In this document: piece after piece, positions 44,373 through 47,283 of the stretch
How positions within the stretch are numbered: position 1 is the first letter of the stretch
How the letters are laid out: each line of letters opens with the position of its first letter
Assembly (NCBI GenBank): GCA_024685975.1
Contig: JAIBDZ010000004.1
Coordinates: forward strand, 1-64,000
DNA from: Piscirickettsiaceae bacterium
GTDB lineage: Bacteria; Pseudomonadota; Gammaproteobacteria; Nitrosococcales; Methylophagaceae
DNA length: 64,000 nt
Reading direction: 5' to 3'
The notes under the pieces: generated by a model
Databases searched by the model: none
What the model was told of the DNA's origin: nothing
The model's input: the letters and a program-made list of their open reading frames with translations, nothing else
Program-made: the position numbers and the translations under genes

Positions 44373-44442
44373 ATGCCAAGCTTGATGTGAATCAAGTACG
44401 GAAAGCTTCAGGTCTCTTATTTTAGAGATGGCTGGGTTGCAT
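44373..44442 (+). ncRNA. GEMM-I (c-di-GMP-I)-like riboswitch leader, copy A
   Basis: Closing stem ATGC (44373-44376) / GCAT (44439-44442). First hairpin CTTGAT-GTGA-ATCAAG (44381-44396), with a GNRA tetraloop. Joiner ACGGAAAGC (44398-44406). Second hairpin TCTCT / AGAGA (44413-44417 / 44424-44428), then GGCTGGGTTGC. This is the order of elements in c-di-GMP-I riboswitches (their joiner is ACGCAAAGC and 3' strand AGCCGGGTTGCC). It ends 8 bases before the AAAGGGA ribosome site of the gene at 44464. Family membership is by eye, not by covariance model. Confidence 0.7.
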
Positions 44443-44463
44443 TTTTTCCTAAAGGGACTCCAT

Positions 44464-45051
44464 ATGAAAAAACAAATGCAACTTTTACTTGCTTTTACAG
44501 GTATGTTAACAGCCTCAACCGCTTTTGCTGCCAATCAAGCAGCGGCTACATTAACGTTTTTTGATCAACGTGGCCTGATTGAAAACAGTGCTTCAAGTAC
44601 AGCTAATATTACGAGTGTTATCTATAGCTTAGGTACTGCTGATGCAGGCATTGCAACATGGGATACTGGTGCAGCCGGTGGTGTAGCCAGTGATTTTTTA
44701 AGCGATAGTCGTTATTTCCAGACAGTCACATGGAACGGCTTAAATATTGCCGCGGGTGATACATTTAATTTTGGTACTCTAGATATTGATCTCATTACTA
44801 GCTTATCGCCGTTATCAGTCACCGGGAGTGTGCTTGACGAAGTGGGTACATCACTGGCGAACGCCACATTAAGCCTATTATGGAGTGATGGTGGTTCAAC
44901 GACAGTCAGTCTGGTAGAGCAAGCATGGAGAGACACGCAATATTTAAGTTTTGCTACTCAAACTTCTGCGGTACCCGTACCTGCTGCCTTATTTATGTTT
45001 GCTCCAGCTTTATTAGGATTGATGGGGTATCGTCGTAAATTGGCAAAATAA
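44464..45051 (+). CDS. Exported protein with VPxPA (PEP-CTERM-like) sorting tail, copy 1
   Basis: A 195-residue protein: signal peptide (MQLLLAFTGMLTASTAFA), a beta-rich Ser/Thr-rich body and a C-terminal tripartite tail VPVPAALFMFAPALLGLMGYRRK (motif, hydrophobic helix, basic end; written here in part as VPVPAA...YRRK). Such tails are cut by an exosortase during export to the surface. No exosortase gene is in the window. The frame is open to 44428, but ATG 44464 follows AAAGGGA. The body has no family that I recognise. Confidence 0.85.
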   Translation: MKKQMQLLLAFTGMLTASTAFAANQAAATLTFFDQRGLIENSASSTANITSVIYSLGTADAGIATWDTGAAGGVASDFLSDSRYFQTVTWNGLNIAAGDTFNFGTLDIDLITSLSPLSVTGSVLDEVGTSLANATLSLLWSDGGSTTVSLVEQAWRDTQYLSFATQTSAVPVPAALFMFAPALLGLMGYRRKLAK

Positions 45052-45086
45052 GATTTGTTATAAACACATTAACTTTGCTTTAAAGG

Positions 45087-45119
45087 GCCGTAATAAATGC
45101 GTTTTATTACGGCTTTTTT
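45087..45119 (+). terminator. Rho-independent terminator
   Basis: GCCGTAATAAA / TTTTATTACGGC with a 4-base loop, followed by TTTTTT, 36 bases after the first sorting-signal gene and upstream of rnpB. Confidence 0.92.
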
Positions 45120-45173
45120 ATTTGCATGACAAATAAAAATAATAGATAAACAGCAAAGATAACAATAACACTT

Positions 45174-45179
45174 TATACT
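45174..45179 (+). promoter_or_regulatory. -10 box of rnpB
   Basis: TATACT lies 8 bases before the 5' end of the RNase P RNA, as expected for its promoter. The -35 region is not close to consensus. Confidence 0.5.
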
Positions 45180-45187
45180 AACGGCCT

Positions 45188-45540
45188 GAGATGGCCAGAC
45201 AATCGCGCTGTTGCAATAAGTAGCAGTGAGGAAAGTCCGGGCTCCAACGGGCAAGGTGCCAGATAACTTCTGGGAGGCGCGAGCCTACGGCTAGTGCAAC
45301 AGAAAGGATACCGCCGGATCTAATTCGGTAAGGGTGAAAGGGTGCGGTAAGAGCGCACCGCGCTTTTGGTAACAAAAGTGGCATGGTAAACCCCACCTGG
45401 AGCAAGACCAAATAGAAGAGCAGTGTGCTTGCACACAGATACGGCCCGTATCGTTCTTGGGTAGGTTGCTTGAGGCAGATGGCGACATCTGTCCCAGATG
45501 AATGATTGTTCTCGACAGAACCCGGCTTATCGGCCATCTC
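45188..45540 (+). ncRNA. rnpB: RNase P RNA (class A)
   Basis: A 353-base RNA with terminal pairing GAGATGGCC (45188-45196) / GGCCATCTC (45532-45540). It contains the universal segment GAGGAAAGTCCGGGCTCC, the AGAAGAGCAGTG-type and ACAGAACCCGGCTTA conserved blocks, and the GGTAAACCCC substrate-binding region. It is the catalytic RNA that matures tRNA 5' ends. Position between rsmI and mraZ is as in Pseudomonas. Predicted reading frames across it are meaningless. Confidence 0.97.
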
Positions 45541-45575
45541 ACCACTTAATGACACCAAAGAAATAAACCACACCA

Positions 45576-45591
45576 GTACCAAAGTACAATA
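45576..45591 (+). promoter_or_regulatory. Shared 16-bp promoter element, copy 2
   Basis: GTACCAAAGTACAATA, 36 bases after the end of rnpB and 41 bases before the structured leader of the next gene. It differs from copy 1 at two central bases. Confidence 0.6.
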
Positions 45592-45632
45592 CTGCCCCAA
45601 GACAGTTAATGCTATGGTATGTGAAGGAAAGA

Positions 45633-45701
45633 TAGCCAAACTTAATGTGAATTAAGGACGGAAAGTGACAGACCTTATCTTTGACAAGTGGCTGCATTGC
45701 T
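45633..45701 (+). ncRNA. GEMM-I (c-di-GMP-I)-like riboswitch leader, copy B
   Basis: Closing stem AGC (45634-45636) / GCT (45699-45701). First hairpin CTTAAT-GTGA-ATTAAG (45641-45656), joiner GACGGAAAG (45657-45665), second hairpin CCTT / AAGTGG-type, then GGCTGCATTGC. The first stem differs from copies A and C by paired changes while the GTGA loop is unchanged. The 3' strand is the most divergent of the three. It ends 29 bases before the ATG. Confidence 0.65.
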
Positions 45702-45730
45702 TTTTTATAACAACATTAATGAGAGACATA

Positions 45731-46345
45731 ATGCGTTTATTGAGTCGGACTATTAAAACAATTGGTACCATCGTCTTTGCTGCGAGCATGACATATTCAG
45801 CTAATATTTCAGCGGCAACAGCCCCTGTTCCGAGTATCGTAATATCTGGTGGCGAGATAACGGGCATTAACAATGTTAACGTGACAGGTTATGGTTTGTT
45901 CGATATGACGTTTAATAGTCTTTATCAAAACACGCTATATGACCAAAATTTTGCAAATAATGCTAATAGAGCTGCTTTCGATGTGATTCACACGGGTGCT
46001 CTGGCAAATACTCTTATCGATTTCCAAGCCGAGCCAGTTACAGGATGCGGTATTGGAGCTTCGGCGACTGGGCAGTATGGGCGTTGTGATTGGTTTACGG
46101 CTGTTACTGAGCTTGCTCCGGGTATTCTTTATCAAGGTAATACTGTTAGAAATTACTCACAGCCACGAGGTAATGATGAAATAATAGAGTATTATGTCGC
46201 ATTGAATCAGCCTGTAGATGGGCTGACTTTTGTCGATTGGACTCCGAGTCAACACATTAGCGAAGTGCCTGTGCCAGCTGCGGCGATATTGTTTGCGCCA
46301 GCTTTATTCGGTTTTTTAGGGTTTAGACGTAAAATCCGTAACTGA
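45731..46345 (+). CDS. Exported protein with VPxPA (PEP-CTERM-like) sorting tail, copy 2
   Basis: A 204-residue protein with a signal peptide (IKTIGTIVFAASMTYSANISA), a body with one likely disulfide (GCGIGAS...GRCDW), and the tail VPVPAAAILFAPALFG followed by FRRK. ATG 45731 is chosen because GAGAGA precedes it; the upstream in-frame ATG at 45665 would lie within the structured leader. The body is not recognised and is unrelated at a glance to copy 1 except for the tail. Confidence 0.83.
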   Translation: MRLLSRTIKTIGTIVFAASMTYSANISAATAPVPSIVISGGEITGINNVNVTGYGLFDMTFNSLYQNTLYDQNFANNANRAAFDVIHTGALANTLIDFQAEPVTGCGIGASATGQYGRCDWFTAVTELAPGILYQGNTVRNYSQPRGNDEIIEYYVALNQPVDGLTFVDWTPSQHISEVPVPAAAILFAPALFGFLGFRRKIRN

Positions 46346-46371
46346 TAATAGCTAGACTAAGTATTTGATAT

Positions 46372-46407
46372 AAAAAAGCCGCGATAAATTTTATCGCGGC
46401 TTTTTTA
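46372..46407. terminator. Bidirectional rho-independent terminator
   Basis: AAAAAAGCCGCGATAAA / TTTATCGCGGCTTTTTT with a 2-base centre, between the convergent second and third sorting-signal genes. Confidence 0.95.
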
Positions 46408-46427
46408 TTATGCGAAAAATCGTTTAC

Positions 46428-47189
46428 TTAAGCTGATTTGGCTTTTTTACGAAATCCCATTAACCCCAATAAGGCGGGTCCAAATAACCATACTGCAGCA
46501 GGTAATGGCACTGCATTGGGAGGAGTGACAACCGGGCCGCTACCCACATCAATTAAGCTGCCATCAATGCCTTGAGAAAAATCATAAAACTGGAAGCTAT
46601 CATCTAATTTTTCCAATTCGAAAGAGAGTGTTTCTAAAGCAAGTAGGCTATTAAATAAAGTGCTTAATGTTCCTGCATCATTTGAGAAAAACCAACCCGT
46701 GTCAAGAAGGTTGTTTCTAAAGCCACCGCCACTAAGACCTCCCGCTGCTTCGACACCTAAGGCAGTTGTGTTTTGGGCTTCGACATCAGACCAGTTACCA
46801 AAATCGATACCATTGATTAAGAGATTGTTATCGTCTTCATCAAAATTCCCACTGGCGTTATCACCATCATAGAGTGAGAGACGAAATGAGGCTTCGGCAA
46901 TACCGCCACCAAGCGCATCGGTAACAGAGGTGCCCCAGCCTACTTGAGAGCCAATATCAACATTAGTGACCCCTGATACATTACCAGAAAATAAGCTGCT
47001 GGCGGATAATTGAGACATAACACGTGCGCCATTTGTACCCACTAAATCAACAACAATACCACCAACGGCAGTCACGCCTGGAATAACAGCGCCTTTGCTG
47101 GTTAACGATGTTTCGGTAAAGGTGCTAGCGGATACGCTAGTAGCAGAAAAGAGTAGAGCTGCAGCTCCGATTAATACGTTTTTTTTCAT
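46428..47189 (-). CDS. Exported protein with VPLPA-CTERM sorting tail, copy 3
   Basis: A 253-residue protein with signal peptide KKNVLIGAAALLFSATSVSA, a body rich in G, S, N and D, and the tail VPLPAAVWLFGPALLGLMG then FRKK. This is the classical VPLPA-CTERM form, cleaved by an exosortase in characterised systems. AAGGAAA precedes the ATG. The gene is on the opposite strand from copies 1 and 2 yet has the same leader and promoter element. Probable extracellular or surface matrix protein; specific function unknown. Confidence 0.87.
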   Translation of the reverse strand: MKKNVLIGAAALLFSATSVSASTFTETSLTSKGAVIPGVTAVGGIVVDLVGTNGARVMSQLSASSLFSGNVSGVTNVDIGSQVGWGTSVTDALGGGIAEASFRLSLYDGDNASGNFDEDDNNLLINGIDFGNWSDVEAQNTTALGVEAAGGLSGGGFRNNLLDTGWFFSNDAGTLSTLFNSLLALETLSFELEKLDDSFQFYDFSQGIDGSLIDVGSGPVVTPPNAVPLPAAVWLFGPALLGLMGFRKKAKSA

Positions 47190-47208
47190 AACATTTCCTT
47201 GAGTGAAA

Positions 47209-47283
47209 ATGCAGCCCAGCCATCTTAATTTTTATCTAAAGACCTGAAGCTTTCCGTATTTGGTTCACACCAAAGTTGGCAAA
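47209..47283 (-). ncRNA. GEMM-I (c-di-GMP-I)-like riboswitch leader, copy C
   Basis: Read on the minus strand: TTGCCAAC, first hairpin TTTGGT-GTGA-ACCAAA, then TACGGAAAGCTTCAGGTC (identical to copy A over 18 bases), a second hairpin TCTT / AAGA with a longer loop, and GATGGCTGGGCTGCAT. The first stem carries paired substitutions relative to copies A and B. It ends 19 bases before the start codon. The remaining part of the 47190-47786 gap holds the promoter element (next entry), short inverted repeats with no clear role, and the mraZ promoter. Confidence 0.7.

Follow-up and report, generated by a model that had tools for sequence, protein, structure and literature searches.

The closest described relatives of the three leader elements considered here are the riboswitches of the c-di-GMP-I (GEMM-I) class (RF01051), which sense cyclic di-GMP (c-di-GMP). 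The leaders lie in a stretch of 64,000 nucleotides (nt), referred to as the window, from a Piscirickettsiaceae bacterium of the family Methylophagaceae (contig JAIBDZ010000004.1 of assembly GCA_024685975.1), and each precedes a gene for a PEP-CTERM-type surface protein. They have in common with RF01051 the fold, the GNRA-capped stem, the joiner, the bases G20, A47 and C92, and scores above the cut-off. They differ by a C-G pair at positions 21-46 (G-C is commoner in a sample of the phylum), by a weak P1 helix and, in about half of the leaders of the family, by a strand beginning at C92 that matches the translation start region. A second class, c-di-GMP-I-GGC (RF03167), supplies the top model in a clan-filtered scan, but the leaders fall below its cut-off and carry another base at position 47.

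Three characterized or catalogued systems are also similar, as far as the available passages of the respective papers describe them. In Methylophaga nitratireducenticrescens GP59, four of seven c-di-GMP riboswitches listed in 2025 are upstream of PEP-CTERM or VPLPA-CTERM genes (PMC12530212), the same association as in the window, in what is very probably the same bacterial family. An earlier inspection of this DNA, made from the letters alone (the sequence-only reading), held that riboswitch control of exosortase substrates is not a textbook example, which is fair, although these four Methylophaga genes had been listed (PMC12530212). The pilM cGAMP (cyclic GMP-AMP) riboswitch of Geobacter metallireducens is likewise an ON switch, and its ligand-contacting C75 is captured by a downstream strand, through a pair with G102, in the ligand-free fold; that strand is a transcription terminator, whereas the partner in the present leaders is the translation start region (PMC9262584). 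Vc1, a c-di-GMP-I riboswitch upstream of gbpA in Vibrio cholerae, is an ON switch for a surface colonization factor, and no anti-Shine-Dalgarno sequence was seen in it in the passages available (PMC4744006).

The leaders of the window are probably c-di-GMP-I riboswitches through which high c-di-GMP switches on the translation of surface proteins sorted by exosortase, as judged from aptamer homology, from the genes behind them and from predicted pairing at the start site. The sensor is ordinary, and its wiring to genes adds something new. Association with PEP-CTERM genes is already published for one Methylophaga (PMC12530212). The available passages of that work give positions and transcript levels; aptamer variation, an expression platform, a promoter motif and a family-wide scope were not found in them. 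What is new relative to the literature passages is the family-wide dedication, the C92-led complementarity to start sites and the promoter motif. A search of open-licence literature found no paper that joins a c-di-GMP riboswitch with an exosortase. To our knowledge, little is known of how exosortase substrates are regulated, and GbpA is not one of them. One second messenger appears to gate up to about a dozen surface proteins per genome through copies of a single RNA, and about 170 natural variants (88 + 83 leaders) are at hand for studying how c-di-GMP sensing by an aptamer is linked to translation.

Aptamers and the genes behind them

Direct reading and a cmscan search both recover the three leaders where the sequence-only reading had placed them. 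Aptamer 1 spans 44366-44445 on the + strand (G20 at 44375, C92 at 44440), aptamer 2 spans 45626-45705 on the + strand (G20 at 45635, C92 at 45700) and aptamer 3 spans 47206-47289 on the - strand (G20 at 47280, C92 at 47211). Their covariance-model scores against RF01051 (50.7, 44.8 and 48.7 bits, respectively; curated cut-off 35) place all three in the c-di-GMP-I class and bear out the GEMM-I layout that had been recognized by eye. When the whole 64-kb window is compared with 4227 Rfam families, the leaders have E-values of 3.4e-8, 7.3e-8 and 2.6e-7, and these three matches and RNase P RNA are the only ones with E < 0.1.

The two-hairpin fold with its GNRA-capped stem is supported by covariation. 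The stems CTTGAT/ATCAAG, CTTAAT/ATTAAG and TTTGGT/ACCAAA, the GTGA loop, the ACGGAAAG joiner and the GGCTG...TGC strand can be read directly in the leaders. RNAalifold finds the GEMM-I fold unprompted in 30 leaders from the genome of the window and its relatives, with compensatory changes in 14 of 20 pairs, and the paired substitutions first noted within the window are thus real covariation. In a 21-pair structure that we specified ourselves, 94.3% of cells pair compared with 87.7% after shuffling (0 of 500 shuffles as high). The GTGA tetraloop, which had been described as invariant, is common to the three leaders of the window but varies elsewhere (GCGA, GAGA, GTAA). The ligand-contacting bases G20, A47 and C92 are named for Vc2 (PMC4744006), and their places in the leader alignment are our own mapping. 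All three are kept in the window, in agreement with the earlier claim for the G and the C. G20 and A47 occur in 100 of 100 rows of the family alignment (88 leaders and 12 repeats of the same places), and C92 occurs in 80 of the 88 leaders. The three leaders are c-di-GMP-I aptamers, with ligand binding itself predicted from these features.

Each leader is followed after 13-25 nt by the start of a gene whose product carries VPVPA or VPLPA near its C-terminus, followed by a hydrophobic segment and a basic tail, which upholds the proposal of a PEP-CTERM-type gene behind every leader. The first encodes a VPVPA-CTERM secreted protein of 195 amino acids (aa) (44464-45051, +) with a signal-peptide-like start and the tail AVPVPAALFMFAPALLGLMGYRRKLAK, both read directly, and a C-terminus that weakly matches exosortase-dependent models (E = 0.005). 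The second (45719-46345, +) is a VPVPA-CTERM secreted protein of 208 aa, shortened to 204 aa if the ATG at 45731 is the start, with the tail EVPVPAAAILFAPALFGFLGFRRKIRN and weak NCBIfam matches. The third is a VPLPA-CTERM secreted protein of 253 aa (46428-47189, -) with the tail AVPLPAAVWLFGPALLGLMGFRKKAKSA. A PxP motif followed by a hydrophobic stretch and a basic end, together with an N-terminal signal peptide, is the hallmark of exosortase substrates, and all three proteins have these features on direct reading. Against curated PEP-CTERM-type family models, the best matches of the three stay under the cut-offs (TIGR03370 scores 15.5 bits for the third protein, cut-off 25.35); four other places in the genome of the window pass the TIGR03370 cut-off. 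A Pfam search of the three proteins returned only CarboxypepD_reg, at an E-value of 0.093 and below its cut-off.

The same genome encodes a full exosortase (Exosortase_EpsH, E = 9.3e-66, C7:119141-119899). Its surroundings read as an exopolysaccharide/exosortase gene cluster, with functions assigned by eye to the open reading frames (ORFs) of 39.8 kb. No obvious DNA-binding regulator was noticed by eye in these ORF lists, where no family search was made.

The genome of the window (1.62 Mb, 67.6% complete) contains 12 aptamers that pass RF01051, and 11 of them are upstream of VPxPA-CTERM genes. Nine of these genes are intact and have a PxP[A] tail. One has the variant tail VSIPAALWLF (L006), and one seems broken (L009, G000 C18:19406), with no usable start and a VPVPA tail in another frame, a break that could be a sequencing error. 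The remaining aptamer (L002) is the sole one with no gene behind it. Conversely, the VPLPA-CTERM model finds 12 places in the genome at E-values up to 10, of which eight are behind an aptamer and four are not (C18:61429, C18:58898, C7:221769 and C22:45396). The aptamer is therefore common, and not universal, among the VPLPA-CTERM-type genes of this genome.

RF01051 matches occur in 27 of 59 genomes, including that of the window. In 36 genomes of its family there are 88 leaders (the first set), 75 of which are upstream of a gene with a PxP tail, defined as a PxP[AGTS] motif within the C-terminal 45 residues encoded by the longest ORF nearby. Among the other 13, five genes are cut off by the fetched stretch, one leader has no ORF (L009), and seven are divided among near-motif tails (L006 and L214), four orphan aptamers and L173. 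A second genus has matches in 15 of 24 genomes and 83 distinct leaders, a set that excludes G034, already in the first set, and one unfetched match (the matches not fetched for this genus are G034:C3:257865 and G061:C54:18173). Of its leaders, 78 have a complete gene behind them, and every such gene encodes a PEP-CTERM-like tail (75 recognized by motif, three with VPLPPA); the genes of the other five are cut off. This genus is very probably Methylophaga, since two aptamers of one of its genomes (G065) contain positions 82867 and 1405201 listed for GP59 in PMC12530212; a further three are 67-154 bases away from listed ones, two listed positions are unmatched and one match is unlisted. In the family, c-di-GMP-I aptamers nearly always precede genes for exosortase-type surface proteins.

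Aptamers also co-occur with exosortases more often than expected in both genera. In the genus of the window, 11 of the 12 genomes that encode a full exosortase have them, compared with seven of 17 that do not (Fisher p = 0.007), and in the second genus 14 of 18 compared with one of six (p = 0.015), figures in which gaps in the assemblies and common descent act as confounders. The seven genomes of the first genus that have an aptamer and no detected exosortase comprise one with only an orphan aptamer (G003), two in which the aptamer precedes a different long secreted protein (G027 and G028), one with both an orphan and a PEP-CTERM gene whose end is odd (G013), and three that have PEP-CTERM genes and are 86, 81 and 75% complete (G002, G010 and G019).

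A candidate expression platform led by C92

About half of the leaders show complementarity between the strand beginning at C92 and the region of translation start. In leader 1, the candidate platform (44440-44478, +) pairs the C92 arm CATTTTTT (44440-44447) with codons 3-5, AACAAATG (44471-44478). Seven of eight pairs can form, five of them contiguous, and the Shine-Dalgarno sequence and start codon are left in the loop; when the whole leader is folded, TTGCATTT is predicted to pair with AAATGCAA. In leader 3 (47192-47211, -), a CATTTTC...GGAAATG hairpin of seven base pairs (-4.5 kcal/mol) starts at C92 and would enclose the Shine-Dalgarno AAGGAA.

Three partner sites can be distinguished when a leader is assigned to a class by at least five contiguous pairs starting at C92. 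The bases behind the Shine-Dalgarno are the partner in CATTTTC...GGAAAATG, where C92 meets position -2 (the class of leader 3). The start codon is the partner in pairings such as CATAATTT...AAATTATG, with C92 opposite +3, and codons 3-5 (the codon-5 class) in CATTGCTT...AAGCGATG, with C92 opposite +15 (the class of leader 1). Of 80 leaders from the first set, 19, 10 and 17 belong to these classes, respectively, and of 83 from the second genus, five, six and 35. Arms and partners vary in step (CATTGCTT/AAGCGATG, CATTACTT/AAGTAATG, CAAAACTT/AAGTTTTG, CATAATTT/AAATTATG), and in L216 (TGTTTTC/GAAAATA) position 92 itself is a T with an A as its partner, a joint change.

The complementarity exceeds that of swapped arms. 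The mean number of contiguous C92 pairs is 5.61 compared with 4.22 after swapping in the first set (n = 79) and 5.35 compared with 4.54 in the second genus (n = 82), and in neither did any of 1000 swaps reach the observed value. After similar leaders are removed at increasing strictness, 0, 0 and 27 of 5000 swaps are as high in the first set (n = 70, 53 and 26), and 3, 216 and 2666 of 5000 in the second genus (n = 28, 19 and 7). If the segment includes five codons past the start, positions 92-95 have a pairing probability of 0.65 compared with 0.25 for shuffled sequences in the first set (n = 79) and 0.62 compared with 0.25 in the second genus (n = 82). A hairpin test in which the segment ends at the start codon gives a strong result in the first set but a weak one in the second genus.

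C92 is known to pair with the ligand in c-di-GMP-I aptamers. In the proposed mechanism, C92 and the bases that follow it would pair with the translation start region in the absence of ligand and block initiation. When c-di-GMP pairs with C92, the start-site helix would lose its first pair and a ribosome could load. A settling cell, in which c-di-GMP is high, would consequently make matrix-associated proteins that are then processed by exosortase.

Several observations weigh against this mechanism or narrow its scope. Leader 2 is a weaker case (45701-45726, +): its predicted fold joins the sequence TTTTTTAT, beside C92, to ATGAGAGA, which comprises the first possible start codon and a purine run, and C92 is left unpaired; the leader belongs to no class. 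Five contiguous C92 pairs to any of the three partner sites are lacking in 34 of 80 first-set leaders, leader 2 among them, and in 37 of 83 from the second genus, and eight of the 88 first-set leaders lack C92 altogether. Significance in the swap test fades with stricter clustering as n falls. In the second genus, ending the segment at the start codon reduces the pairing probability to 0.32 compared with 0.26 (p = 0.34, or 0.38 in another run), with p = 0.011 for linkers of at most 40 nt and 0.105 for those of at most 80 nt. The codon-5 partner was recognized only on viewing the second genus, and its test there is partly post hoc. The closing helix P1 has little support (largest z = 2.4 over 24 registers tested), and for this reason we dropped it as a candidate switching element.

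Ligand class and mode of action

The consistent deviation of the leaders from the c-di-GMP-I consensus, a CGGAAAG joiner together with a 5' GCCAA, represents the two sides of one aptamer pair that has changed from G21-C46 to C21-G46. Across the 100 rows of the family alignment, the pair is C-G in 98 and G-C in two, with no mixed row. A pattern permitting either form gave 51 matches in 398 genomes of the phylum; the 37 with a stem, meaning pairing at five or more of its six places, divide into 27 G-C, 10 C-G and no mixed pairs, and seven of the 14 without a stem are mixed. Eight of the 10 C-G matches are from the genome of the window and only two from outside it. The C-G form also occurs in Methylomonas, Nitrosospira, Geobacteraceae, Geobacter, Sulfurovum and many Desulfobacterota among the matches listed. 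These distant loci (100 of 118 pattern loci) come from a pattern that demanded C21 and G46, and they consequently show the spread of the form and not its frequency.

The two G-C rows (L142 in G028 and L153 in G027), the sole G21-C46 leaders of the first set, are upstream of a different long secreted protein whose end is outside the fetched stretch, and no exosortase was detected in either genome.

The sequence-only reading had taken the deviation at 21-46 as a possible mark of altered ligand preference, which would make the leaders, for example, sensors of the c-di-GMP-I-GGC type or of another dinucleotide. RF03167 is indeed their best-scoring model against the whole Rfam library in the clan-filtered scan, and the copy at C7:143897 (59.7 bits) is the one among the 12 of the genome that exceeds its cut-off of 59. 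However, leaders 1, 2 and 3 score only 47.9, 46.8 and 44.9 bits with this model and 11 of the 12 copies fail it, whereas all 12 pass the ordinary RF01051 model. The RF03167 consensus has a G at the position aligned to 47, which presumably gives the GGC class its name, and all 100 rows of the family alignment, including the three leaders, have an A. An A at position 20 (G20A) is the mark of cGAMP-type GEMM-I riboswitches, and here all 100 rows have G20, with C92 also kept in the three leaders. Because the swapped pair is intact and is present far outside the family, the contacts G20, A47 and C92 are canonical and the RF01051 cut-off is passed, the swap appears neutral and carries no signature of another ligand. 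We reject the altered-ligand reading, which is very improbable, and the swapped pair should not be mistaken for a sign of a new ligand, which removes a possible false lead.

If the leaders respond to c-di-GMP, they might still act on transcription, by termination or antitermination, or on RNA stability instead of on the translation start. U-rich stretches behind some aptamers (around 44442-44447 and 45701-45706, for example) would suit this mode of action, riboswitch transcript levels changed in Methylophaga (PMC12530212), and Vc1 has neither a visible terminator nor an anti-Shine-Dalgarno, its mechanism being left open in the passages available (PMC4744006). C92 and the start codon are mostly 21-45 nt apart (range 21-247 and median 32.5 in the second genus), which is short for both a terminator and a start region, and the complementarity aims at the Shine-Dalgarno, the start codon or codon 5. 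Action on transcription or stability is accordingly unlikely. An OFF switch, in which the ligand lowers expression, is a much slighter prospect: closely related cyclic dinucleotide aptamers of both signs exist (PMC9262584), but competition between the ligand and the start-site helix for C92 predicts that expression rises with c-di-GMP, matrix proteins would be expected to rise with it too, and Vc1, upstream of a colonization factor, is ON (PMC4744006).

Ligand-contacting positions are changed in a few leaders. C92 is replaced by T in L188, L200, L211, L215, L216, L218, L009 and L258 (469-554) and by A in L213, and one degenerate leader among the 83 of the second genus (L338) reads A at position 20. 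These leaders may be decayed copies, misalignments or altered sensors.

A palindromic upstream motif and atypical aptamers

A palindromic motif, GTACYWAAGTACAATW, is present upstream of many leaders. Exact matches to GTACYWAAGTACAATA precede all three leaders of the window, as GTACTTAAGTACAATA (44305-44320, +) before leader 1, GTACCAAAGTACAATA (45576-45591, +) before leader 2 and GTACCTAAGTACAATA (47356-47371, -) before leader 3, and end 34-66 nt ahead of the aptamer. With up to three mismatches and within 200 nt upstream of G20, the motif is found for 49 of 88 leaders in the family compared with one of 88 in shuffled sequence, and for 44 of the 80 second-genus leaders with enough upstream sequence compared with one or three of 80. 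The exact pattern GTACYWWRGTACAATW has 13 sites in two whole genomes, and the reversed pattern has none. All 13 are before PEP-CTERM genes. Eleven are ahead of aptamer leaders, including that of the broken gene L009. At the other two, the downstream genes have VPVPA and VPIPA tails, and the 200 nt after the site contain no aptamer core.

The motif includes a -10-like TACAAT and looks like an operator. It probably adds a transcriptional layer that is shared with PEP-CTERM genes lacking a riboswitch. Combined with the pairing predictions, this would amount to a two-layer regulon in the Methylophagaceae, a proposal that we consider about evenly balanced between right and wrong. In such a regulon, c-di-GMP-I aptamers would be dedicated to exosortase substrates, and a palindromic promoter motif that marks PEP-CTERM genes would act together with an aptamer whose C92-led strand masks the start. 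The partner of this strand would shift among the Shine-Dalgarno, the start codon and codon 5, with the switch lying partly in coding sequence.

The RNase P RNA gene (45187-45545, +; 339.9 bits) is located inside the PEP-CTERM cluster of the window, between the first gene and the second leader. In L173 (G025 C17:150850), the palindromic motif and an aptamer are upstream of a 53-aa ORF resembling a membrane protein, with no PEP-CTERM gene. Orphan c-di-GMP-I aptamers with no gene behind them occur in four genomes of the genus (L002 at 1501-1625, G000 C7:213942; L151; L170; L221). Their layout is a promoter-like stretch, judged by eye, followed by the aptamer and a strong terminator within about 15 nt in three of the four; the terminator is degenerate in L221. 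They resemble merRNA, a c-di-GMP-riboswitch RNA of Bdellovibrio that, in the passages available, is proposed to serve as a reservoir (PMC3627812). Antisense control of a convergent neighbor is another option for these RNAs.

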